Source of the DNA: Alphaproteobacteria bacterium
Lineage (GTDB): Bacteria; Pseudomonadota; Alphaproteobacteria; Geminicoccales; Geminicoccaceae
Length of the DNA stretch: 37,875 nt
Assembly: GCA_030431615.1 (NCBI GenBank)
Contig: JAUIID010000025.1
Span: forward strand, 1 to 37,875
Direction: 5' to 3'
Made by a program: the position numbers and the translations under genes. The notes beneath the pieces were generated by a model. The model did not search any database. It was given only the letters and a program-made list of their open reading frames with translations, and was not told the DNA's origin. Below are positions 11,266-37,476 of this stretch, in pieces (position 1 is the stretch's first letter; every line of letters starts with the position of its first letter).

Positions 11266-14200
11266 TTGGCAGCCGGTAAAGTCGGCGCCGAATTGAGCAC
11301 TCGCGAGGACCAGATCGCACGGCTCTATGTCGACGGTCTGAGCTACAAGGAGATCGCGCGCGATCTCGAAATCTCGCCGGCGACCGTCCGTACCCACCTC
11401 AATACCATCTACCGCAAGCTGGAAGTATCGAGTCGGATCGAGCTCCTGCACTGCCTCGGGGGCAATGGCACCGTCGAGACGGCGCCGGTGCCGGACACCG
11501 TCCCTGCGGCCCGGCCTGTTGCCGAGCGGCGGCAGCTGACCGTGATGTTCGTGGATCTGGTCGACTCGACGGCCATTGCCATCGGACTCGACGCCGAGGA
11601 CATGCACGAGCTCCTGCAGACCTATCGCGCTGCCGTGCGGCGCGAGGTCGAAACCTTCGGCGGGCATGTCGCCGGTTTCCCGGGCGACGGTGTCATCGCC
11701 TGCTTCGGCTGGCCGCGGGCTCTCGAGGACGCGGCCGAACGGGCGATTCGCGCCGGGCTCGCCGTCACGACCGCGGTCAGCAGTCTCGAAACGCCCGGCG
11801 GCACCCTGCTCGCCGCACGGATCGGCATCGCCACCGGCGTGGTCGTCGTCGACGGGCAGCACGGCGATGCCGAGAGCCTCACTGGCGGCACACCCAATCT
11901 CGCCGCCCGGCTGCAGGTCGTCGCCGAGCCGGGCCATGTCGTCATCGCGGCGGATACCCGCGTTCTGGTCGGCGATCTCTTCGAGCTCGAGTCACTGGGC
12001 CTGCAGCCGGTCAAGGGGCTGCCGGCACCGGTGCCGGTCTTCCGGGTCAGGGGAGAGCGACTGCAGCTGAGCCGCTTCGAGGCGCAGCATGCGGGCGGCC
12101 TCGCGCCGATGAGCGGCCGCGAGCTCGAGCTGGCCCTGCTGGCGGAGCGCTGGGAGCGAGCCCGGAACAGCGAGGGCCAGGCGGTGCTCCTGATCGGCGA
12201 GCCCGGAATCGGCAAGTCCCGGATATCGGCGGCACTGATCGCGCGTGCGGTGGCAGAGGGAGCGACTGTTCTCCGCTACCAGACTTCCCCGCAGCAGGGC
12301 GACAGCCCCTTGTGGCCGGTGCGTCGCCAGCTCGTCGCCGAGGCGGGCCTCGACCATCTGCCCGATGCCGCGGGGCGACTGCAGCGGCTGGGCGATCTTC
12401 TCGGCGAGTTCGAGCCGAAGCCCGATGAGGCCGTGCCGCTCATGGCCGAGCTGCTCGATATCGGCGATGCGGTGCCGCCCGCCGGGATGAGTGCGGCCAG
12501 GCGCCGCGATCTCGTCATCGAGATCCTGGTGAGGCGGCTCGAGCATCTCGCCCGGCGCACGCCGGTCATGATCCTGTTCGAGGATCTGCACTGGATCGAC
12601 CCGACCTCGCTCGAGCTGCTGGAGCGCATCCTCGGCCGGATCGACGAAGCCCGCGTGCTGCTCCTCATGACCTCGCGGCCGGAGGACCAGCCGCACCTCA
12701 CGGGCCACCCGCATCTTACCGTCATGACCCTGAATAGGCTGGCCAGGGCTGCTGCCACGGCCATCGTCCAGCGCGTGGCCGGTGGCGACCAACTGCCCGA
12801 GGACATGGTCGCGACGATCCTCGCCCGCACCGACGGCGTGCCGCTCTACATCGAGGAGATGACCCGGGCCACGCTCGAGCGCGGCGGCGACAGCGACAGC
12901 GTGCCCGCGACGCTCCAGGACTCGCTGATGGCTCGCCTGGAGCGGCTCGACGCCGTCAAGGAGGTGGCGCAGATCGCTTCCTGCATCGGCCGGGAGTTCG
13001 ACCACGATCTCCTCGAAGCCGCCGCTGGCGAGGCTCAGGCCGACCTCGCCGAAGCGCTCGATCGCCTGGTCGGCGCCGAGCTCGTCTTTCGCCGTGGCGA
13101 CCGCTACCTCTTCAAGCACGCGCTGGTCCAGGACGTCGCCTACCAGTCGCTGTTGCGCGGCCGTCGCGCCGTGCTGCACGGGCAGATCGCCGAGTCCCTT
13201 CTCGGGCGCTTTCCGGATCGTGCCCAGGCCGAACCACAGACGGTGGCGCACCATCTGGAACATGCCGGGCGCACGGAAGGGGCCATCGACTATTATACGC
13301 GGGCCGCCGATCTCGCCAACGACAAGGCCGCCAATCGCGAGGCGCGCCGCTATCTCGAACGATCACTGCGGCTGATCGCTACGCTGCCGCCGGGCATCAC
13401 GCGAGACCGGCGCCAGGTCGCGGCCCTGACCATGCTGGGCAAGGTTCAGGCGGCGATCGAAGGCCATGCCAGCCAGGCGGCTGGCGAGGTCTACGGCCAG
13501 GCTCTGCAGCTCTGCCGCGCGGCCGGCCTTGGCCTCGCCGAGTTTCCGATTGTGCTCGGCCTGACGATCAAGGCCGCAGTCTCCGGTGAGGGGAACGAGG
13601 CGCTCAAGCTGTCTCAGCGGCTCGACGAATTGACGACTGGCCTGGACGATCCAACCCTCGTCGTCGAGGCCAACTACGCTCTCGGCATTACGCATTCCTG
13701 GCGCGGTGAACTGGCATTGGCCAGGCATCATTTCGGCGAGGCCCGCCGGCGCTACTCGATCGAGCAACACGCTCGCCACCTTGCCCTCTACGGCCAGGAT
13801 CCAGGCGTCGTTTGCGGCTGCCGCGGAGCCATGACGCTCTGGTACATGGGCTATCCGGAACAGGCCCAACGCCTCATGGCGGAAAGCCTAGACCTCGCCT
13901 ACCGGCTCGGCCATTCCTTCAGCATCAACTACGCATTGCATTGGACGTCCATGCTGACCATCGAGCTGGGCGATGGGCAAAGGGCCGAGCGCGCCGTGGC
14001 CGTGAGCCTTGAGCATGCGGGCGAGCAGGGATTCGGCACCTGGCTTTCGATGGGCGAGGTCTGCCGTGCCCAGCTCGTGCTTCTTCGTGACACGCCTGCG
14101 GCCGCCGTTGCAGCCTGCGAGCATTCCCTGGCCAAGGTTCGATCTTCCGGCAGCGGCGTCTTCGTGCCCTTCGCTCTGAGTCTTCTGGGCGAAGCGTTGA

Positions 14201-14565
14201 GCCGCCGGGGTGCCCCCGATGCCGGGCTCGAGCGAATCAACGAGGCCCTCGCCCACATCGAGGCCGGCGGAGCTCGTTGGGTGGAAGTCGAGGTGCTGCG
14301 CCGGCGAGCCGCCTGCGAGCGGGTGTTGGGGGACGTTGCCGCGGCGGCGGCAACGCTCGAGACGGCTCTCGACGTCGCCCGCCGCCAGGAAGCGCGGATG
14401 CTGGAGCTGCGGGCCACCATGGATGTCGCCCGCCTCAGGGCGGAGCAGGGCGAGCCCGAACCTGGCGCCGACTTGCTCGCCACCTGCCTTGCCGGCTTCA
14501 CCGAAGGGTTCGAGACACGGGACCTGCGCGAGGCGAACAAGTTGCTTGCGACACTGAAGGCCTGA
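11266..14565 (+). CDS. Multidomain regulator: LuxR-type HTH, class III nucleotide cyclase domain, AAA/NB-ARC-like ATPase, TPR repeats
   Basis: 1099 residues from a TTG at 11266 preceded by a GGGGGA-rich leader. Residues 8-64 form a LuxR/GerE helix-turn-helix (LSTREDQIARLYVDG, then EIARDLEISPATVRTHLNTI). Residues 88-260 resemble a class III cyclase catalytic domain: metal-binding D97 (MFVDLVDST) and D141 (GFPGDGVIACFGWP), and N211/R215 (PNLAARLQ). The usual purine-selecting lysine is replaced by G137. The P-loop is GEPGIGKS (311-318), with Walker B-like ILFEDLHWID. The remaining ~500 residues are helical TPR-like repeats. It is probably a cytosolic DNA-binding sensor switch. The HTH is at the N-terminus, unlike classic LAL regulators where it is C-terminal. 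Its target is most likely the divergent FAD oxidoreductase gene. Confidence 0.88.
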   Translation: MAAGKVGAELSTREDQIARLYVDGLSYKEIARDLEISPATVRTHLNTIYRKLEVSSRIELLHCLGGNGTVETAPVPDTVPAARPVAERRQLTVMFVDLVDSTAIAIGLDAEDMHELLQTYRAAVRREVETFGGHVAGFPGDGVIACFGWPRALEDAAERAIRAGLAVTTAVSSLETPGGTLLAARIGIATGVVVVDGQHGDAESLTGGTPNLAARLQVVAEPGHVVIAADTRVLVGDLFELESLGLQPVKGLPAPVPVFRVRGERLQLSRFEAQHAGGLAPMSGRELELALLAERWERARNSEGQAVLLIGEPGIGKSRISAALIARAVAEGATVLRYQTSPQQGDSPLWPVRRQLVAEAGLDHLPDAAGRLQRLGDLLGEFEPKPDEAVPLMAELLDIGDAVPPAGMSAARRRDLVIEILVRRLEHLARRTPVMILFEDLHWIDPTSLELLERILGRIDEARVLLLMTSRPEDQPHLTGHPHLTVMTLNRLARAAATAIVQRVAGGDQLPEDMVATILARTDGVPLYIEEMTRATLERGGDSDSVPATLQDSLMARLERLDAVKEVAQIASCIGREFDHDLLEAAAGEAQADLAEALDRLVGAELVFRRGDRYLFKHALVQDVAYQSLLRGRRAVLHGQIAESLLGRFPDRAQAEPQTVAHHLEHAGRTEGAIDYYTRAADLANDKAANREARRYLERSLRLIATLPPGITRDRRQVAALTMLGKVQAAIEGHASQAAGEVYGQALQLCRAAGLGLAEFPIVLGLTIKAAVSGEGNEALKLSQRLDELTTGLDDPTLVVEANYALGITHSWRGELALARHHFGEARRRYSIEQHARHLALYGQDPGVVCGCRGAMTLWYMGYPEQAQRLMAESLDLAYRLGHSFSINYALHWTSMLTIELGDGQRAERAVAVSLEHAGEQGFGTWLSMGEVCRAQLVLLRDTPAAAVAACEHSLAKVRSSGSGVFVPFALSLLGEALSRRGAPDAGLERINEALAHIEAGGARWVEVEVLRRRAACERVLGDVAAAAATLETALDVARRQEARMLELRATMDVARLRAEQGEPEPGADLLATCLAGFTEGFETRDLREANKLLATLKA

Positions 14566-19466: not shown

Positions 19467-20699
19467 CTAGTCGCCGCTGGCGACACCGACCGACGATGAT
19501 GTCCGGCGATCGGCCAGAGGAGGCTCGTGCGCCACCATGCGGCGATAGAGCCCCTCGAGACTGGCCACCACGCGCGACCACGTCAGCTCCGCCTCCACAT
19601 GCTCCCGGGCGGACCGGCCGAGCGCCGCTCCGCCATCCGGCCGGTCCAGCACCGCCAGCATGCCGCGCGCCAGCGCCGTCGGCGTGGGCTCGTCGACGAG
19701 CCAGGCGTCCTGATCCTGCGTCAGGCCTCTCGCCGAGTCCCGAAACGAGACGATCGGTCGCCCTGCGGCCATGTAGTTGAGCAGCTTCAACGGATAGCCC
19801 GGACACTCCGCGCGGGGATTGACGAGCAGCGAAGCATTAGCGAGCCGCCGGCCGAGCGCCTGTGGCGGCGGCGCCTGCTCGATGTCGATCCGGTCCTGGA
19901 TGCCCAACCGCTCGGCCAACGGCGCAAATCGCTCGAACGACGAATCGGTCAGAAGCACCAATCTGGCGCCGGGCTTTGCCTTCGCCACCTGGGTGAACCC
20001 CTCGAGCAGCGTGTCGATGCCCTGATAACCTGCGAGATTGCCGGCATAGACGATCCGTTCGCCCGACCCGTCCGGCAGGCTGTCCGGAACCGGCCCCGCG
20101 ACAAAGGCGTCCTCGATGCCGTTGCCCACCACGGTGACACGCTCGGCCGACATGCCGTCCCGGTAGAGTTCGTCGGCGATGTGCTGGCTGGTTGCCACGA
20201 TGTGGTCGGCAAGCCTGGGCAGGCGCGCGTCGAGGGCGCGGCCGACCGCCGTCGTCCAGCCGCGTGGCACGCCCAGACGGTAGTAGGGCAGCTCGCCAGC
20301 CAGAGTCGTGTGGGCATCATAGATGACCGGCACGCCGTGCAGTTGCCTCGCCGGCCACGCGGCAAGCAGCCCCTCATAGTGGTGGGCGTGCACGATCTCG
20401 ATGCGCTGTCGGGCAACCACCCGCGCCACCGTCGCCGCGAGCGCCGGGAGGAAGAAACCGAGCCGCAGGGGATCGGCCCCGGGCGCCGTGCGCCGGTAAA
20501 ATGGCAAGCCCAGGCTGCGATGCACCGAAAACGGCAACTTCTGGTCCAGATCGCCGATCGGATAGGCGATCACATGAACATCATGCCCGGCCTGGTGCAG
20601 CGCCTGTGCCATGCCGAGGATGCGCGCCGGCGTACCGCGTGGCCAGGGGAACGGGCATCCCGCGACCAGTGCAACGCGCAGGGGAGACGAACGCGCCAT
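19467..20699 (-). CDS. Glycosyltransferase family 4 (GT-B fold)
   Basis: 410 residues. The N-terminal glycine-rich acceptor domain has VALVAGCPFPWPRGTPARILGMAQALHQAGHDV, followed by VHAHHYEGLLAAW. The C-terminal nucleotide-sugar domain has VTVVGNGIEDAF, RIVYAGNLAGYQGID, and LLVNPRAECPGYPLKLLNYMAAGRPIVSF. In most GT4 enzymes the last motif carries a second Glu where Asn is found here (LLNYMAAG), so the E-x7-E pair is altered. It probably transfers a sugar to a lipid or polysaccharide at the inner membrane face. It stands alone, about 100 bases upstream of the importer operon on the same strand. Its ribosome binding site is weak. The specific product is unknown. Confidence 0.85.
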   Translation of the reverse strand: MARSSPLRVALVAGCPFPWPRGTPARILGMAQALHQAGHDVHVIAYPIGDLDQKLPFSVHRSLGLPFYRRTAPGADPLRLGFFLPALAATVARVVARQRIEIVHAHHYEGLLAAWPARQLHGVPVIYDAHTTLAGELPYYRLGVPRGWTTAVGRALDARLPRLADHIVATSQHIADELYRDGMSAERVTVVGNGIEDAFVAGPVPDSLPDGSGERIVYAGNLAGYQGIDTLLEGFTQVAKAKPGARLVLLTDSSFERFAPLAERLGIQDRIDIEQAPPPQALGRRLANASLLVNPRAECPGYPLKLLNYMAAGRPIVSFRDSARGLTQDQDAWLVDEPTPTALARGMLAVLDRPDGGAALGRSAREHVEAELTWSRVVASLEGLYRRMVAHEPPLADRRTSSSVGVASGD

Positions 20700-21485
20700 C
20701 AGCGAACGTCACGCAGGGTGGGCGCCGGAGCCCGGCGTCGCTGCGTGCCCGCGACTGCCAGTCCCTGGCCCGGAGCATCGGCGAACGACGGACCCGTCAC
20801 GATCAAAGGCCGGTCAGCGGCCGCCGAGCCGAGGCGCCCCGCCGATTTTTCGATTGATACATAAGAGGAAGCTCTGTTGCGCGGATCTGACCGCATTGAC
20901 TGGACCCCGTACCAGCTCACTCTGGCTCGGGCAAGCCAAGCTGCCTTCCCCTCATTCAATATCAATCGACGGCGTCCGTCCACGCCGAACCCTCAAAGAC
21001 CACGCATCCGCATGGCAGGCGATCACGTATTGAACCAGAACAATCCCCGACGGTCTGATCATGCTGAACCTCCCGACTACTGGCACAATGGCCATACGAT
21101 GGAAAGCCGGATCGCGACGGAACCGGGATTGCACCTGCCGGCCAGCAAACCTCGTTTTCGCTGCTGCCCGGCGGACCTCGACGAACGCAGATCCGGTGAC
21201 TGACACGTCTGTCCCCGATCTGCCCCGAAAACTTGCCGGACGGTGGCGCGGCCGATTGAACTCGGTCAGAGAAGAGCTAGCTTTGGGCTCCTGAACCAAT
21301 CGTCAACGAGCTTTTGTCGCGCCACCATCATGAGGGTCCGCCGCCGGATCGCCATGTGGGCCGCAGCAACCGAAAGTCGAGGCCGGTGCAGACGTGACGA
21401 TGACCTTCCCTGTCGAATGCGACGGCGTCTGCGCCTCCGCGCCCGGGAACTCCCGGGCGGTCGGGTCCGCAGCTTGAGAGGTTCC
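20700..21485. other. Intergenic region without a convincing gene
   Basis: About 0.79 kb between the divergent glycosyltransferase and bchJ genes. It is less GC-rich around 20860-21130 than its surroundings. Open frames here are short, lack ribosome binding sites and do not show protein-like composition. The region may hold two promoters and decayed sequence. A perfect stem (21440-21459) lies close to bchJ. Confidence 0.5.
21440..21459 (+). promoter_or_regulatory. GC hairpin in the bchJ leader
   Basis: An 8-bp stem, CGCCCGGG (21440-21447) and CCCGGGCG (21452-21459), closes a 4-base AACT loop, 26 bases before the bchJ ATG. It has no T-tract. It could affect leader stability or translation, or be an incidental GC palindrome. 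Confidence 0.35.
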
Positions 21486-22136
21486 ATGCCCGCTCCGGAC
21501 CTGGCCACGGCCCCCTCAACGCCGACCAGGGCGGCCAGCCGTTCGACCGGTCGCATGTGCGCGGGAGCCGTTTCCCAGGTGGCGGCGGTGCTGGGCGAGC
21601 GTGTCGGCGAGGCGCCCCTGCGACGCCTCTTCGCGACAGCCGGCCTCAGCCGCTACCTCGCCGACGGTTCCGCAGCGCTTGTCGACGAACGCGAGGTCGC
21701 GGCCCTGCACCGAACCCTGCGCCACCAGCTCGGACCGGCCTGTGCCAGGGCCGTGACCCGGGCGGCCGGACGTCGTACGGCCGACAACCTGCTGGCGCAG
21801 CATGTGCCGGCACCGCTTCGCCGGCTCTCCCGGCATATGCCCTGCCCGCTCGTTGCGCGGTTGCTGCTGCTGACCCTCCAGCACGATCCCTGGCGGCTGG
21901 CCGGCAGCGGCGCCTTCGTCGCCGTCTACGGCCGGCCAATGCGTCTCGGCCTCACCAACAATCCGCTCTGCCTGAGGCAGCACGACGATGCGCCGATCTG
22001 CGATTTCCTGGCCGGCACCTTCGAGCAGCTCTGCCGCAGCCTGATCAGCCCGCGAAGCACGGTCAGGGAGATCGCGTGCGAGGCCGGCGGGGCGCCGGCC
22101 TGCATCTTCGAGATGGAAGTCCAGAAGTCCGCGTGA
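21486..22136 (+). CDS. bchJ: BchJ-like bacteriochlorophyll 4-vinyl reductase family protein (V4R domain)
   Basis: 216 residues from the ATG at 21486, with GAGAGG nearby; the frame is open upstream but that part is Arg-rich and unlike protein. The sequence matches the BchJ pattern through its length: ALHRTLRHQLG, RAAGRRTADNLLAQHVPAP, MPCPLVARLLLL, HDPWRLAGSGAF, NNPLC, and the C-terminal V4R-type CEAGGAPACIFEM with spaced cysteines. BchJ is linked to 8-vinyl chlorophyllide reduction or porphyrin handling in bacteriochlorophyll synthesis; the actual reductase in many bacteria is BciA/BciB, so BchJ may be an accessory protein. No other bch, crt, puf or puh gene is in the window. Its stop is 3 bases from the convergent permease gene. 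Confidence 0.82.
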   Translation: MPAPDLATAPSTPTRAASRSTGRMCAGAVSQVAAVLGERVGEAPLRRLFATAGLSRYLADGSAALVDEREVAALHRTLRHQLGPACARAVTRAAGRRTADNLLAQHVPAPLRRLSRHMPCPLVARLLLLTLQHDPWRLAGSGAFVAVYGRPMRLGLTNNPLCLRQHDDAPICDFLAGTFEQLCRSLISPRSTVREIACEAGGAPACIFEMEVQKSA

Positions 22137-22139
22137 GGA

Positions 22140-23516
22140 CTACTCGGCCGGTGTCGCTACGGCTTTCAGAGCAGGGTCCGGCACCGCATCCGGCAAAACC
22201 AGGGTCATCAGGATCGCACTGAGACCGGCCGCGGTGATCGGCGCGCCCAGCACCTTCTGCACGATATCGGGCAGTCCCTCGAGCGCGTTCGGCACCAGGG
22301 CCGTGCCGAGCCCGAGACCAAGAGAGACCGCGAGGACATAGATCGTCTTCCGGTCGATCGGTTGCGTCGCGATGATGCGTATGCCGGCAACCGCGATCGA
22401 GCCGAAGAGGACGAGCGTGGCGCCGCCCAGGACCGGCTTCGGGATGGTCGCCAGCACCGCGCCGAAGATCGGAAAGAGCCCGAGCACGACGAGCACGCCG
22501 GCGATGTAGAAGACGATATGACGGCTGGCCACGCCGGTCATCTGGATCACGCCGTTGTTCTGGCTGAAGGTCGTGTTGGGAAAGGTGTTGAGCATGGCGG
22601 CGAGGCCGGAGTTCACGCCATCGGCCAGGATTCCGCCCTTGATCCGACGGAGATAGACCGGCCCTTCGACCGGCTCGCCCGAGATCACGGAATTGGCGGT
22701 AAGGTCGCCAGTCGTCTCGATCGCGGTGATGAGATAGATGAACGCGATCGGCGCAAAGAGGCCGAGATCAAAGTCAATGCCGAACCGGAACGGAACGGGC
22801 ACGGCGAGCAGGGGCTGACCACCGATCCGGCTGAAGTCGACCATGCCGAGAACGGCCGCAATGCCGAAGCCGACGGCCAATCCGATCACTAGCGCGCTGA
22901 TCCGCACCTGCAGGTTGGCAACGAAGCTGCACCACAGCACGACGCAGATCACGATCATGCCGATCGCGAGATTGACCGGGCTGCCGAATTTCTCGGCTCC
23001 GACGCCGCCGGCGAGGTCGGTAAAGCCGACCTTGACGAGGCTGAGACCGATCACCGTGATGACGACGCCGGTCACTGTCGGCGTGATCACCCGCTTCAGC
23101 TGCTCGATGAACTGGCTCAGGATGATCTCGATCACGCAGCCGACGAGGCAGAGCCCGAAGATCATTGCCAGCATCTCTTCCGACGTGGCACCCCGCGCCT
23201 TCATGGCCAGCCCGGCGGCCAGGATGGCGCCGAGAAAGGCAAAGCTCGTTCCCTGGAGGCTGAGCAGTCCCGAGCCGACAGGGCCGATGCGCCGGCATTG
23301 AATGAAGGTGGCGACGCCGGAGACGATCAGCGCCATGCTGATCAGATAGGGAATGTGCTCGCCGAGGCCGAGCACACCGCCAATGATCAATGTCGGTGTA
23401 ACGATGCCGACGATGCTCGCCAGCACATGCTGCCAGGCGGCAAGCATGCTGATCCCGAAACTCGGCCTGTCTTCCAGCCTGAAGACGACTCCTGCCGGGG
23501 AACGCGATGAGTCCAC
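22140..23516 (-). CDS. Nucleobase:cation symporter-2 (uracil-xanthine permease family)
   Basis: 458 residues from a GTG at 23516 with AAGGAG at ideal spacing. It has 12-14 hydrophobic segments. NCS2 family marks are seen: an early GTSFAFLGAILA-like motif (LQGTSFAFL), the acidic TM8 region FIYLITAIETTGDLTANS, and the TM10 region LNTFPNTTFSQNNGVIQMTGVASR. It should import xanthine, urate or uracil with H+ or Na+ across the inner membrane. It interrupts bchJ and idi in reverse orientation. A hydantoinase/dihydropyrimidinase about 2 kb further on could use imported pyrimidine or purine derivatives. The exact base is uncertain; the Q-N-N motif suits purines. Confidence 0.9.
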   Translation of the reverse strand: MDSSRSPAGVVFRLEDRPSFGISMLAAWQHVLASIVGIVTPTLIIGGVLGLGEHIPYLISMALIVSGVATFIQCRRIGPVGSGLLSLQGTSFAFLGAILAAGLAMKARGATSEEMLAMIFGLCLVGCVIEIILSQFIEQLKRVITPTVTGVVITVIGLSLVKVGFTDLAGGVGAEKFGSPVNLAIGMIVICVVLWCSFVANLQVRISALVIGLAVGFGIAAVLGMVDFSRIGGQPLLAVPVPFRFGIDFDLGLFAPIAFIYLITAIETTGDLTANSVISGEPVEGPVYLRRIKGGILADGVNSGLAAMLNTFPNTTFSQNNGVIQMTGVASRHIVFYIAGVLVVLGLFPIFGAVLATIPKPVLGGATLVLFGSIAVAGIRIIATQPIDRKTIYVLAVSLGLGLGTALVPNALEGLPDIVQKVLGAPITAAGLSAILMTLVLPDAVPDPALKAVATPAE

Positions 23517-23720
23517 GCGCGTCTCCTTGGTGAAGTTGAGTCTGCTTGGCCGAGCTTTGAACCGAGGCTGACACAGCGACCATTATGTTGCAATGCACAA
23601 AGCGCATGGCTGGTGACAGGCAGCAGCAGGGCGAGTGCTGATCGCCCTCGTTCCCCCCTGCTTGACTTTGCGCCATGGCGGGTGTCGATTTGGTGGTCCG
23701 ATGGAGGAGACACAGGAAAG

Positions 23721-24278
23721 TTGCCCGACGCACCGGCAGTTCGGTCGACGCCCCGGAGCCGCGCCGAGCGGGTGATGCTGGTCGATGCGGAAGACAGGGT
23801 CATCGGCACCGCGGAGAAGCACGCGGCACACCGCTCGGGCACGCTGCACCGCGCCTTTTCCGTGCTGATCCAGGACCATGCCGGCAACTGGCTGCTGCAG
23901 CGGCGCAGTCCCGGCAAGTATCATTCGGGCGGGCTCTGGACCAATGCCGCCTGTGGCCATCCGCGCCCGGGGGAGGCGACCGAGGCCGCTGCAGGTCGCC
24001 GGCTCGAGGAGGAGCTCGGCTTCGTCTGCCCGCTCGCCTACCTCACCAAGGTCTACTACCGCTCGCCGCTCGATCACGGCATGACCGAGCACGAGCTGGT
24101 GAGCATCTATACTGGCCGCCATGCCGGGCCGGTGTCGCCGGATCCCGCGGAGGCCGACGCGGTGCGCTGGGCCGAGCCGCGGGAGCTGCGCCGCGACATG
24201 GATGCGCATCCCGACCGCTACACGGTCTGGTTCCGCAAGTACGTGACCGAGCTCTGGGCGGCGCTGCACGCCGCCTGA
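23721..24278 (+). CDS. idi: Isopentenyl-diphosphate delta-isomerase, type I
   Basis: 185 residues from a TTG at 23721 with GGAGGAG about 11 bases before; an ATG at 23775 (167 residues) is the alternative. This is close to the ~176 residues of the Rhodobacter enzyme. Nudix-like type I IDI signatures are present: KHAAHRSGTLHRAFSV, the catalytic C78 in GLWTNAACGHPRPGE, and LEEELGF with the metal-binding glutamates. The catalytic Glu lies in the STGMTEHE-like part (DHGMTEHELVSIYTG). It interconverts IPP and DMAPP for carotenoid, quinone and phytyl synthesis. In Rhodobacter the idi gene ends the bchEJG-P operon, so its place 1.6 kb from bchJ is notable. Confidence 0.9.
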   Translation: MPDAPAVRSTPRSRAERVMLVDAEDRVIGTAEKHAAHRSGTLHRAFSVLIQDHAGNWLLQRRSPGKYHSGGLWTNAACGHPRPGEATEAAAGRRLEEELGFVCPLAYLTKVYYRSPLDHGMTEHELVSIYTGRHAGPVSPDPAEADAVRWAEPRELRRDMDAHPDRYTVWFRKYVTELWAALHAA

Positions 24279-24290
24279 GCCGGCTGGTGG

Positions 24291-24680
24291 CTATTCGGGA
24301 TTCGCGATATAGGCGATCACGTCCTGGATCTGCTCGGGCTTGCGCAGGCCCGCGAAGACCATCTTGTTGCCCGGGATATAGTCCTTCGGGTTGGCGAGAT
24401 ATTCGGCGATCGTCGTCTCGTCCCAGACGATGCCGCTGTTCGCCATGGCATCCGAGTACTTGAAATCCGCGACCGTACCTGCCGGCCGGCCGATGATGCC
24501 GACGAGATGCGGACCCACCCGGTTCTGCTCGGCGTCGACCACATGGCAGGCCTGGCACTGCCGGAACACCTTCTTGCCGGCCTCGGGATCGCCGGCTGCG
24601 TCCTGGGCCATCACCGGCGCGGAGAGCGCCAGAACCACCCCGGCCAGCAGCAGGGCCATATTGTTCTTCGTGCTTGTCAA
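24291..24680 (-). CDS. Class I c-type cytochrome (c2/c550-like)
   Basis: 129 residues from a TTG at 24680, chosen for the strong GGGAGG eight bases upstream and for yielding a signal peptide (ALLLAGVVLALSAPVMAQ). The heme site is C42-QA-C45-H46 and the distal ligand is M107 in YIPGNKMVFAGL. GPHLVGIIGRPAG is typical of mitochondrial-type c2. It is a periplasmic electron carrier that could serve the bc1 complex, oxidases or a photosynthetic reaction centre. It converges with idi with 12 bases between stops. Confidence 0.9.
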   Translation of the reverse strand: MTSTKNNMALLLAGVVLALSAPVMAQDAAGDPEAGKKVFRQCQACHVVDAEQNRVGPHLVGIIGRPAGTVADFKYSDAMANSGIVWDETTIAEYLANPKDYIPGNKMVFAGLRKPEQIQDVIAYIANPE

Positions 24681-24875: not shown

Positions 24876-24935
24876 ATGCCCTATCGAGAGCCACACTTCA
24901 TCCGCATCGCCGACACCGGGTCGGGGCCGGGCTGA
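24876..24935 (+). CDS. Possible 19-residue leader peptide before the flavin-reductase-like gene
   Basis: A short frame, ATG at 24876 to a TGA at 24933-24935, has GGAG in its leader and ends so that TGATG joins its stop to the next gene's start. It could couple translation to the downstream gene. It is too short to judge by composition and may be chance. Confidence 0.2.
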   Translation: MPYREPHFIRIADTGSGPG

Positions 24936-25570
24936 TGGATCTCCGCATCGCCAATCTCGCCCCGCGCGACCGCTACAAGCTGCTCACCTCGCTCGTCGTG
25001 CCGCGGCCGATCGCCTTCGTCACCTCGCAGGATGCGGATGGCCTCGTCAATGCGGCCCCCTTCTCGTTCTTCAACGTCTTCAGCGACGAGCCGCCACTCG
25101 TGGTCATCGGCATCGGCCGGCGTGCCGGGGGTGCGCTGAAGGACACTGCCCGGAATATCGAGGCCAGGGGCGAGTTCGTGGTCAACCTGGTCGACGAAAA
25201 GCTGGCCCCCGCCATGAACGTCGCCGCGGTCGATTTCCCGCCGGAGAAGAGCGAGCCCGGTCCGGCGGGCCTCAGCCTCGCCGCTTCGACCCTGGTCAGC
25301 CCGCCGCGCATTGCCGAGGCCCCGGCAGCGCTCGAGTGTCGAAACTACACGACGCTGGTGATCGGCGTCGACCACCGCCTCGTCGTCGGCGAGGTCCTCG
25401 CCATCCACGTCCGGGATGGCCTCGTCGATCCGGACACCCTGCGCATCGACTTCGACGCCTACCGTCCGGTCGGCCGGCTCTTCGCCAATCTCTACTGCCG
25501 GACGCGCGACACCTTCGAGCTGGTGCGCGAGAACTACGCCCAGTGGCGCAGCCGGACCGGCGGAGAGTAG
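24935..25570 (+). CDS. Flavin reductase-like, FMN-binding split-barrel protein
   Basis: 211 residues. The flavin-reductase-like fold is marked by LTSLVVPRPIAFVTSQDADGLVNAAPFSFFNVFSDEPPLVVIGIG, then KDTARNIEARGEFVVNLVDE and DHRLVVGEVLAIHV near the end. Family members bind FMN and reduce flavin with NAD(P)H, or act as flavoproteins of unknown role. No signal is seen. Its ATG overlaps the stop of a tiny upstream frame. It reads in the same direction as the hydantoinase gene with about 80 bases between, so both may be in one transcript, perhaps for degrading N-heterocycles. The substrate is unknown. Confidence 0.87.
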   Translation: MDLRIANLAPRDRYKLLTSLVVPRPIAFVTSQDADGLVNAAPFSFFNVFSDEPPLVVIGIGRRAGGALKDTARNIEARGEFVVNLVDEKLAPAMNVAAVDFPPEKSEPGPAGLSLAASTLVSPPRIAEAPAALECRNYTTLVIGVDHRLVVGEVLAIHVRDGLVDPDTLRIDFDAYRPVGRLFANLYCRTRDTFELVRENYAQWRSRTGGE

Positions 25571-34994: not shown

Positions 34995-35987
34995 TCAATT
35001 CGAACTCAGGAACCCAACGACGGTTCGCTCAGCCCAAGTCCTATACACCGATGCCGCTGTGTAGATTCCGAAGAGATCGTTTCGTCCACACCCAATACCC
35101 CAACTTACGATCCCAATGAGCACCGGACTGTCGCTTCGTGGTGTTGCGATTGGACCCTCATTGCGGTACACCATCGGGCCACCACTGTCGCCTTGGCAAC
35201 TATCGAAGTTCCCATCCACAAAGCCTGCGCACAACATGCCATCACCAATGGTCTCACCGTGTTTTGCAAATATTCCTTTGCAGAAGGCATGATCAACCAA
35301 CGGAAGCTGCACCTCTTTTAGTTGAATTGAGTCGCTTCCTGTCTCAGTGAGTCCCCATCCTTGGACATAGACTGATAGGTACGGCTCGTTCAACCAAATT
35401 GTATCGCGCGGCTCTGGAAACCGAATGCTCGCTCGCCGCACTTTCTCAAGAGTTAAGTTGGTCGAAGGAGAAAGCTGCAACAGCGCAATATCATGCTCAA
35501 GTGTTTCTGGATTGAAATCAGGATGCGGTAATATTGCCGAGACTAATTGGACCTCCCCCCTTCCATCTTCGTTTGTTCGATTACGTGCGCCGCCGAGCAC
35601 TGATAACCGGGCAACATCTAACAAGGTCCCATCATCGTTTACGACACAGTGCGCGGCTGTAACCAACCATCGCGGCGCCGGGTCGTCGCTGATCCAATCA
35701 AGAACCTTTTCACCTGCAGGATCAAGCATTGGCGACACAAATGAACCACCACAAAAATGCAGCACGCTCTCCAAATCTCCAGCCATAATCTCGTATCTAA
35801 GTGATGCAGCCCAAGGCCCTTGACCCTGTAGCACTGGATCGCCGTTGATGATGCGCTCGGAAGCGCGAGCGACACCGACGCGCGTCTGTGCATGTGACAC
35901 GCTTGATGTTGCAATGGCGAGCACTACCAAACTCAAGATCGGTGCATTGGCAATAATTTCCCTCATTCGTCGAATATTTGTCTTCAT
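34995..35987 (-). CDS. Secreted trypsin-like serine protease (S1A family)
   Basis: 330 residues from the ATG at 35987 (AGGAAG upstream) with a signal peptide ending near SHAQ. The activation-site-like RIINGDPVLQGQGPWAASL is followed by the triad H113 (VTAAHCVVND), D166 (EHDIALLQLS) and S268 (SCQGDSGGPM). D262 in the S1 pocket position predicts cleavage after Lys or Arg. SWGIGCG shapes the binding pocket. Cysteines for several disulfides point to periplasmic or extracellular action. A new N-terminus would form after Arg45, as in trypsinogen, so the protein may be a zymogen. Low GC content and the neighbouring protease suggest joint acquisition. The substrate is unknown. Confidence 0.92.
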   Translation of the reverse strand: MKTNIRRMREIIANAPILSLVVLAIATSSVSHAQTRVGVARASERIINGDPVLQGQGPWAASLRYEIMAGDLESVLHFCGGSFVSPMLDPAGEKVLDWISDDPAPRWLVTAAHCVVNDDGTLLDVARLSVLGGARNRTNEDGRGEVQLVSAILPHPDFNPETLEHDIALLQLSPSTNLTLEKVRRASIRFPEPRDTIWLNEPYLSVYVQGWGLTETGSDSIQLKEVQLPLVDHAFCKGIFAKHGETIGDGMLCAGFVDGNFDSCQGDSGGPMVYRNEGPIATPRSDSPVLIGIVSWGIGCGRNDLFGIYTAASVYRTWAERTVVGFLSSN

Positions 35988-36021
35988 TGCTGATATCTTC
36001 CTGTAAGATTATTGCCTTCAC

Positions 36022-37476
36022 TCATTTATCAAGTCGCGCATCTAACCAGGCCCTGATTTTTGGCGCTTCTAGCGAGACATAAATCCCTCCGCCACCACAC
36101 TGAGCTGGACTTCCCTCTGGCACGGAATTGAGCGCCCGCGAGGTAATTCCTGCCAGTTGCATTTGCGCACCAGTTCCATTTTGAATAAAGAGTGGGCCAC
36201 CACTGTCACCGAAGCAAGTATCAGCTGGCGGTCGTGCCGCCGTACTTTCCAATTCTTGAATGCATATTTCGGAATTACGGCATATCCGAAGCAAGAAGTC
36301 GAGCTCCACAAAATTCTTGTCGCCAGGACGGAACCGATTGTCACTTTCACCGAAACCGACCGCATAGAGTTTTTGATACAGAGTGTTGGTGCGTGCAATC
36401 GGGTCGACAGGCAGGATTGCTTTCGCAAGGGTTTCAGGAAGCTCCTGATTGAGAGTCAGTAGTGCTATATCCGCCATACCCTCATCGAACGCTCGCCCGT
36501 CCGTCCACGCCGTACAGAAATTCGAATCGAAGAACTCCGCCTTGGATTGCAATGGCAGTGAGGTTCGCAATCCGCGACCTCTAACTCGCGACGTGAAAAG
36601 TGTCTCCCCGAAGAAAGCATAAAGCGGGAAATCGCCGCACAAGCAGTGCGCTGCAGTAAGAACCTGATCGTCAGAAACAAGAACACCACTACACTTTGGT
36701 TTGCGGTCGCTGTACTGAAGCGCAACAGTAGTTGGGAACGATAGCCGGTTAAGTGTCGAGGCGAACGACCCACCTTGACCTCCCCCGCTCTCCTTTTTCC
36801 CACCCTCGCCTGAAGCAGCATCAACCCCAGCGACACGAGTGTTGCCTGTTGCTGCAATTCCTGGCGATCTGATCGGACCCGCCCCGGTACCTGCGCAGAT
36901 TGCCGCTGCACAGTGGCCGGTATAGTCGCCTGGATCCAGTGGCGGCTCGGCCGGCGGCTGAACGTCGGGAAGGGACGGCGTTCCAGGAGTTAGAGGGACC
37001 TGCGGCATCGGGCCGAGATCCGGAAACATCACGTTCGACGGCAAAACATCTGTCACACCCGGCAAGGTCAGATTGTGGTCAAAGATGTAAGGTCGATCAG
37101 GCGTGAGGTCATTGTCATATCCGCGAAGTACGATCAGTTGTCCACCAACATCTAGCTCTGCCTCGGAGGTACCTACTGCGTCCGACCCGATAACATCGCC
37201 AAGAATAGAACTGCCGCCGTCTCCGGTAAAACCGCCATCGCCACCACCGTCGCCGCCGAAGCTACCACCACCGCCGCCGAAGCCACCACCACCGCCGCCG
37301 AAGCCACCACCACCGCCACCGCCACCGCCAAATTGTGCCAACTGATAGTGGTCACTGGTAGGCTGCAGCGAGGCATCGTGAGCAGTAGCTGGTAGGCTGA
37401 CAGCGCAGACGACTACAGTGGCCAGCGCCGTCCGCCAGCCATCGCGTACTGCGAGCTTAAGAGTAACAGAATTCAT
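36022..37476 (-). CDS. Secreted trypsin-like serine protease with glycine-rich N-terminal region
   Basis: 484 residues from the ATG at 37476, with GGGAG in the leader. After a signal peptide (to about residue 32), residues 50-89 are mostly glycine with regular Phe and Ser, then comes a Pro/Asp-rich linker with DVQPPAEPPLDPG, and the S1 protease domain from about residue 240. The triad is H277 (LTAAHCLCG), D336 (MADIALLTL) and S425 (CFGDSGGP); D419 predicts Lys/Arg preference. The classic activation site is absent, so control must differ from the 34995 protease. The glycine-rich part may be an adhesive or surface-binding spacer. It lies 34 bases upstream of the second protease gene, likely as the first gene of an operon. 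Confidence 0.88.
   Translation of the reverse strand: MNSVTLKLAVRDGWRTALATVVVCAVSLPATAHDASLQPTSDHYQLAQFGGGGGGGGGFGGGGGGFGGGGGSFGGDGGGDGGFTGDGGSSILGDVIGSDAVGTSEAELDVGGQLIVLRGYDNDLTPDRPYIFDHNLTLPGVTDVLPSNVMFPDLGPMPQVPLTPGTPSLPDVQPPAEPPLDPGDYTGHCAAAICAGTGAGPIRSPGIAATGNTRVAGVDAASGEGGKKESGGGQGGSFASTLNRLSFPTTVALQYSDRKPKCSGVLVSDDQVLTAAHCLCGDFPLYAFFGETLFTSRVRGRGLRTSLPLQSKAEFFDSNFCTAWTDGRAFDEGMADIALLTLNQELPETLAKAILPVDPIARTNTLYQKLYAVGFGESDNRFRPGDKNFVELDFLLRICRNSEICIQELESTAARPPADTCFGDSGGPLFIQNGTGAQMQLAGITSRALNSVPEGSPAQCGGGGIYVSLEAPKIRAWLDARLDK
37230..37335. repeat. Imperfect 18-bp-type tandem repeats coding for the Gly-rich stretch
   Basis: The pattern CCGCCGAAGCCACCACCA is repeated with changes through this part of the protease gene. 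On the coding strand it gives GGGGGGFGG units. Such repeats can change in number by slippage, so the length of the Gly-rich region may vary between strains. Confidence 0.65.

Follow-up and report, generated by a model that had tools for sequence, protein, structure and literature searches.

An orphan bchJ gene in a Geminicoccaceae genome: a probable relic of lost phototrophy

BchJ of Rhodobacter sphaeroides seems to enhance chlorophyllide reductase, and whether it acts as a carrier, a scaffold or a chaperone is left open (PMC4432870). The gene considered here, a bchJ at 21486–22136 of a 37,875-nucleotide stretch of alphaproteobacterial DNA (hereafter the window), lies in a genome in which no other gene of bacteriochlorophyll synthesis was detected. 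The window corresponds to contig C262 in a draft genome of 5.33 Mb and 314 contigs, 96.9% complete and 4.9% contaminated, belonging to the family Geminicoccaceae. Loss of a photosynthesis gene cluster has been described for the chemotroph Citromicrobium JLT1363 (PMC3338782), which, like the present organism, is a non-phototroph with a close phototrophic relative. It differs in that the accessible text of that report mentions no surviving bch gene, while here one survives with its flanks rearranged. Loss as against transfer of such clusters is debated (PMC6052148, PMC4919336), and a further paper yielded nothing on relics (PMC12700997). No report of an orphan or surviving bchJ was found in the literature searched, most subscription journals lying outside the search.

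The window BchJ and the missing photosynthesis genes

The bchJ open reading frame (ORF) specifies 216 amino acids (aa) and is free of stops. A longer mechanical ORF begins at GTG 21243; alignment with the proteins of two congeners favours a start near ATG 21486, directly upstream of which is a Shine-Dalgarno-like stretch, GAGAGG. A short inverted repeat (CCCGGG-aact-CCCGGG, 21441–21458) some 30–45 nt upstream of the start is a possible hairpin or operator. The product scores 123.6 bits against TIGR02019 (curated cut-off 74.3) and 35.2 bits against Pfam V4R (cut-off 31), which bears out the bchJ assigned to this position in a preliminary description of the window. It is the only BchJ, and the only V4R gene, in the whole genome. 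Identity to the cluster BchJ of either congener (G029 and G030) is 54–55%, the congeners being 86% identical to one another.

A scan of named genomes yielded 61 BchJ loci, two of them the congeners' own. The fetched flanks of 53 of these contain a photosynthesis gene (BchL and BchX cross-matches were not told apart); the remaining loci (L147, L160, L170, L182, L191, L195, L197 and L200) lie mostly on short contigs. The 63-row BchJ tree was built with 57 of the 61, leaving out L178 and the partial matches L182, L195 and L200. In it the window BchJ groups with the BchJ of phototrophs, as sister to the two congener cluster copies (support 93/91), and has an end branch of 0.78 as against a stem of 0.22 plus 0.06–0.10 for the congeners. 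The possibility of a mis-annotated V4R regulator was rejected on the BchJ profile score and the tree placement. Grouping with non-BchJ V4R regulators, which the preliminary description had named as grounds for abandoning its proposal, did not appear, judged by the profile score, the tree holding no such regulators. The window protein is BchJ by descent but, with 12 of 35 near-invariant positions changed, not clearly by function.

The order is represented here by the one family, of which 31 genomes were examined. Nine have PufLM, eight Oxidored_nitro and eight BchJ. Seven of the eight genomes with BchJ also have PufLM, the present one being the sole exception, and two of the nine with PufLM are without BchJ. 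In both congeners pufLM is present together with a large part of the cluster (BchN/B/Y/Z in one of the two), and each has a single bchJ about 2 kb from pufM; by gene content they are phototrophs. Here, by comparison, the genome gave no PufLM match, no member of the BchN/B/Y/Z family and no AcsF or BchL/X match (bchH, bchM, puhA-C and pufBA were not searched one by one). On these searches it has neither a photosynthesis gene cluster, that is, a reaction centre with bch and crt genes, nor a bacteriochlorophyll pathway for BchJ to serve, and the complete cluster with its own bchJ elsewhere that would have spoken against the preliminary description did not appear.

Congener DNA told the same story. 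Segments with crtB-crtI-bchO-bchD-bchI-idi (L073), bchC-bchX-bchY (L029) and bchN-bchF, bchG, bchP (L082) matched only idi and scattered flank genes in this genome, beyond short or repeated-family matches. Of 23 query proteins compared with the window (idi and 22 photosynthesis proteins taken from congeners or from members of the family, bchJ not included), idi alone matched (E ≤ 1e-3), in agreement with the earlier statement that the window holds no other bch, crt, puf or puh gene. The stretch upstream of bchJ (20700–21485) gave weak, short matches only to congener cluster genes in tblastn and blastn, and no photosynthesis gene remnants were found in eight other genome stretches matching congener flanks. 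Close to a region matching a congener cluster flank, on another contig (C268, 1–3800 of L231), phage-like genes were recognized by eye.

Residue pattern, selection and predicted fold

The 168 alignment columns at which both congeners agree were binned by how widely the residue is shared among 59 other BchJ proteins (Chloroflexaceae row L199 was kept in the tree and excluded from the conservation columns). From the least to the most conserved bin the window protein departs from the congener residue at 30/44, 14/34, 5/32, 6/31 and 11/27 columns. These counts were stable in three further alignments, one of which gave 30/43 and 15/35 for the two least conserved bins. Fourteen control triples, some with rows in common, together changed at 16 of 384 columns of the top bin, with a maximum of 5/29. 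In a leave-one-row-out count 12 of the 35 near-invariant columns are changed in the window protein, the most among the 63 rows; the next are L199 (7/34, three gaps) and, as the next proteobacterial row, G020 (5/35). BchJ of photosynthetic Proteobacteria differs from the orphan in these positions, namely G-P-N of the motif RIGPN, P62, M65, Y101, R106-I107, Q112, T137-F138 and Y175, and in that no bacteriochlorophyll genes were detected in the orphan's genome; it shares with the orphan the V4R domain, the TIGR02019 match and the kept residues W136, C162, C172, E195, C198 and C206.

Moderately conserved positions changed at 11/63 as against 11/27 for near-invariant ones (binomial p 7e-5, the near-invariant rate of 0.41 being taken as neutral). 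Since plain drift would be expected to strike all bins alike, the sparing of the moderate bins counts against it, and the pattern suggests that the protein was released from pigment work while selection on it continued.

On the window branch a branch codon model (a purpose-written script) rejected omega = 1, omega being the ratio of nonsynonymous (dN) to synonymous (dS) rates, with twice the log-likelihood difference at 54.6 for nine taxa and 34.1 for three. The G+C content at third codon positions (GC3) is 0.852 in bchJ, and 0.814 and 0.849 in the congener genes, while nearby non-coding stretches have a total GC of 0.59–0.66; the codon structure has therefore not relaxed. When window-branch dN is divided by the congener mean, bchJ has a ratio of 8.0, the highest of the seven window genes compared, with 5.5 for idi and 2.0, 2.3, 3.6, 3.6 and 6.6 for the other five (three genes with a match in a single congener were left out).

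A predicted model of the orphan BchJ (predicted local distance difference test score 86, predicted template modelling score 0.84) has the V4R/H-NOX/TRAPP fold. The best fold matches of the model are H-NOX heme domains, over residues 24–214, with Z up to 13.7 (166 residues, root-mean-square deviation 3.3); theirs is a fold that binds tetrapyrroles, and identity is 9–15% in the rows listed. TRAPP Bet3 follows at Z of about 12, and the V4R sensors MopR, PoxR and DmpR at 11.3–12.6. These sensors and MJ1460 (Foldseek E 3e-4) share the predicted fold, the sensors differing in that the orphan has no AAA+ or DNA-binding part. A sequence-profile search of solved structures gave nothing better than E 0.18 (MJ1460, 0.19). 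The titles of the matched structures name heme, phenols and lipids as ligands, and a shared fold by itself shows no function. In DmpR a zinc is held by Cys151, Glu172, Cys177 and Cys185 (PMC7264223); the kept Cys/Glu set of the orphan falls in the same region and, with the residues not matched one-to-one, may be equivalent.

Neighbouring genes and the rest of the window

The genes around bchJ are arranged as follows.
19467–20699, minus strand: glycosyltransferase, the left-hand flank of the bchJ-to-cytochrome stretch
20700–21485, no strand: stretch without a called gene upstream of bchJ, with no recognisable photosynthesis gene remnant
21486–22136, plus strand: bchJ, orphan BchJ/V4R-domain protein of 216 aa (TIGR02019, V4R)
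22140–23516, minus strand: NCS2 permease of xanthine/uracil type, separating bchJ from idi (Pfam Xan_ur_permease, 283.1 bits)
23613–24278, likely start near 23721, plus strand: idi, type-1 isopentenyl diphosphate isomerase (PRK03759 and TIGR02150, above cut-off)
24291–24680, minus strand: class-I c-type cytochrome, c550-like (Pfam Cytochrom_C, 38.8 bits)
24935–25570, plus strand: flavin reductase, the right-hand flank of the same stretch

The preliminary description placed bchJ and idi about 1.6 kb apart with an unrelated permease inverted between them, and so they are: the gap measures 1.5–1.6 kb, and idi scores above the cut-off of both isomerase models (PRK03759, 159.7 bits, cut-off 127; TIGR02150, 111.4 bits, cut-off 105.8). 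The permease scores 413.9 bits against pbuX, just below the cut-off of 414.15, and 338.7 against ncs2 (cut-off 291.8). It is not a photosynthesis gene, and no congener DNA match covering it was present among the matches listed. In G029 idi borders bchI-bchD-bchO-crtI-crtB, in G030 it has matching neighbours on a short contig, and in both bchJ is on a different contig. The chance of so small a gap arising at random in 5.3 Mb was put, after the fact, at less than 1/1000. Strong idi matches (at least 80 bits) occur in 14 of the 31 family genomes, including eight of the 22 without PufLM, this genome among them. As a marker of phototrophy idi was rejected on this ground, and because the gene is common in the family, also where PufLM is absent, its nearness to bchJ is only a weak hint of a shared history.

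The "c2-like" cytochrome is indeed of class-I c type, the narrower label being loose: its best NCBIfam match is CycA c-550 at 115.9 bits against a cut-off of 240. Its congener homologues (L239 and L240, 71–74% identical) lie amid unrelated genes, on which account a photosynthetic role was rejected; the gene is probably unrelated to the orphan bchJ finding. The use of idi and the cytochrome as traces of a former cluster was accordingly the weaker part of the preliminary description.

Genes in the neighbourhood of bchJ are 72–84% identical in DNA to the congeners, so the contig belongs to the genus and is not foreign, and contamination as its source was rejected. No tRNA genes and no RNA families were found in the window. 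Elsewhere in it, two adjacent trypsin-like serine protease ORFs of 330 and 484 aa (34995–37476; GDSGGP and TAAHC motifs seen by eye) have a GC of 0.50–0.56 as against 0.66 for the window and were perhaps acquired. A regulator of 1099 aa at 11266–14565 combines a LuxR-type helix-turn-helix, an adenylate/guanylate cyclase domain, an AAA ATPase and TPR-like repeats.

Explanations and significance

We consider the orphan bchJ to be, on balance, a relic of lost phototrophy that was freed from pigment duty, has been kept under selection and has possibly been reused. The single BchJ, the photosynthesis genes that were not found and the sister relationship to congener cluster copies support the relic part, which the preliminary description had offered beside reuse as an alternative; the two do not conflict, and a combination of both agrees best with the data, reuse being the possible component. 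That BchJ, once phototrophy was gone, was reused to bind a different tetrapyrrole (heme or one of its precursors) or a hydrophobic ligand is a tenable suggestion that we put at somewhat less than even. A phototrophic ancestor within the genus would have lost its photosynthesis genes save bchJ, and idi with uses of its own. The former gene would have been passed down vertically, intact and under purifying selection, with the positions kept by nearly every photosynthetic BchJ released and the fold and moderately conserved positions retained. In phototrophs BchJ would be a small protein of H-NOX/V4R/TRAPP fold that helps to pass on Mg-tetrapyrrole intermediates; in a cell without bacteriochlorophyll it may have been kept to bind another ligand as carrier or buffer, the likeliest candidates being heme, one of its precursors or some other hydrophobic or aromatic molecule.

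Were bchJ instead functionless, drifting since phototrophy was lost and simply not yet broken, one would expect the high dN ratio and the loss of near-invariant residues, but also even change across the bins, which the binomial comparison opposes, as do the intact frame, the GC3 and the rejection of omega = 1, even with dS saturated. We regard such plain decay as unlikely. Taken together, the 12 changes at 35 near-invariant positions, the moderate positions, frame and GC3 that were kept and the rejection of omega = 1 fit a protein relieved of bacteriochlorophyll duty but still selected, and possibly reused, better than they fit simple decay. A duplicated or acquired second BchJ, outside the cluster and with another job from the start, seems less probable again. 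It would account for the lack of a cluster scar in this genome and has a parallel in the family member G003, with two BchJ genes on different contigs; the window BchJ is, however, sister to the cluster copies of congeners with one BchJ each, and all other BchJ genomes in the family have PufLM. The G003 genes (L032 on C51, which enters the tree as L143, and L033 on C40) each lie beside a BchE homologue, and one groups with burkholderial sequences in the tree, which may reflect transfer or contamination. Very improbable, finally, is a cluster present in the organism and missing from the assembly. The genome is a draft, and congener cluster genes are also spread over several contigs, but every marker from two or more separate congener loci is missing, and bchJ no longer encodes residues common to nearly all other BchJ and does not lie beside pufM as in the congeners.

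Several observations weigh against a relic kept under selection. The tree support is good but under the star threshold of the tool, bchJ is beside idi in none of the relatives examined, and BchJ without phototrophy genes is seen in one genome only. No empty site left by the lost cluster was found, the congener flanks being scattered over several contigs. The contrast between near-invariant and moderate positions is modest (Fisher p 0.03 in the window; p 0.08 when the comparison is with the worst of the controls). Window-branch dS is saturated (5.4), which makes the omega estimates of 0.04–0.05 unreliable as values, and selection on bchJ may have acted only before phototrophy was lost.

Whole-cluster loss being already known, what is added here is the residue pattern in a surviving bchJ. 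The exact job of BchJ is unsettled, and a naturally freed copy points to twelve positions for pigment work as distinct from those that hold the fold; the orphan and its congener BchJ form a ready test pair. One loss of phototrophy would be placed inside one genus, in a family in which phototrophy is patchy (PufLM in 9 of 31 genomes). If the proposal is true, a protein of the bacteriochlorophyll pathway has persisted beyond the loss of that pathway, now under a new constraint, and nature has run an experiment that tells residues keeping the fold from those specific to the pigment.

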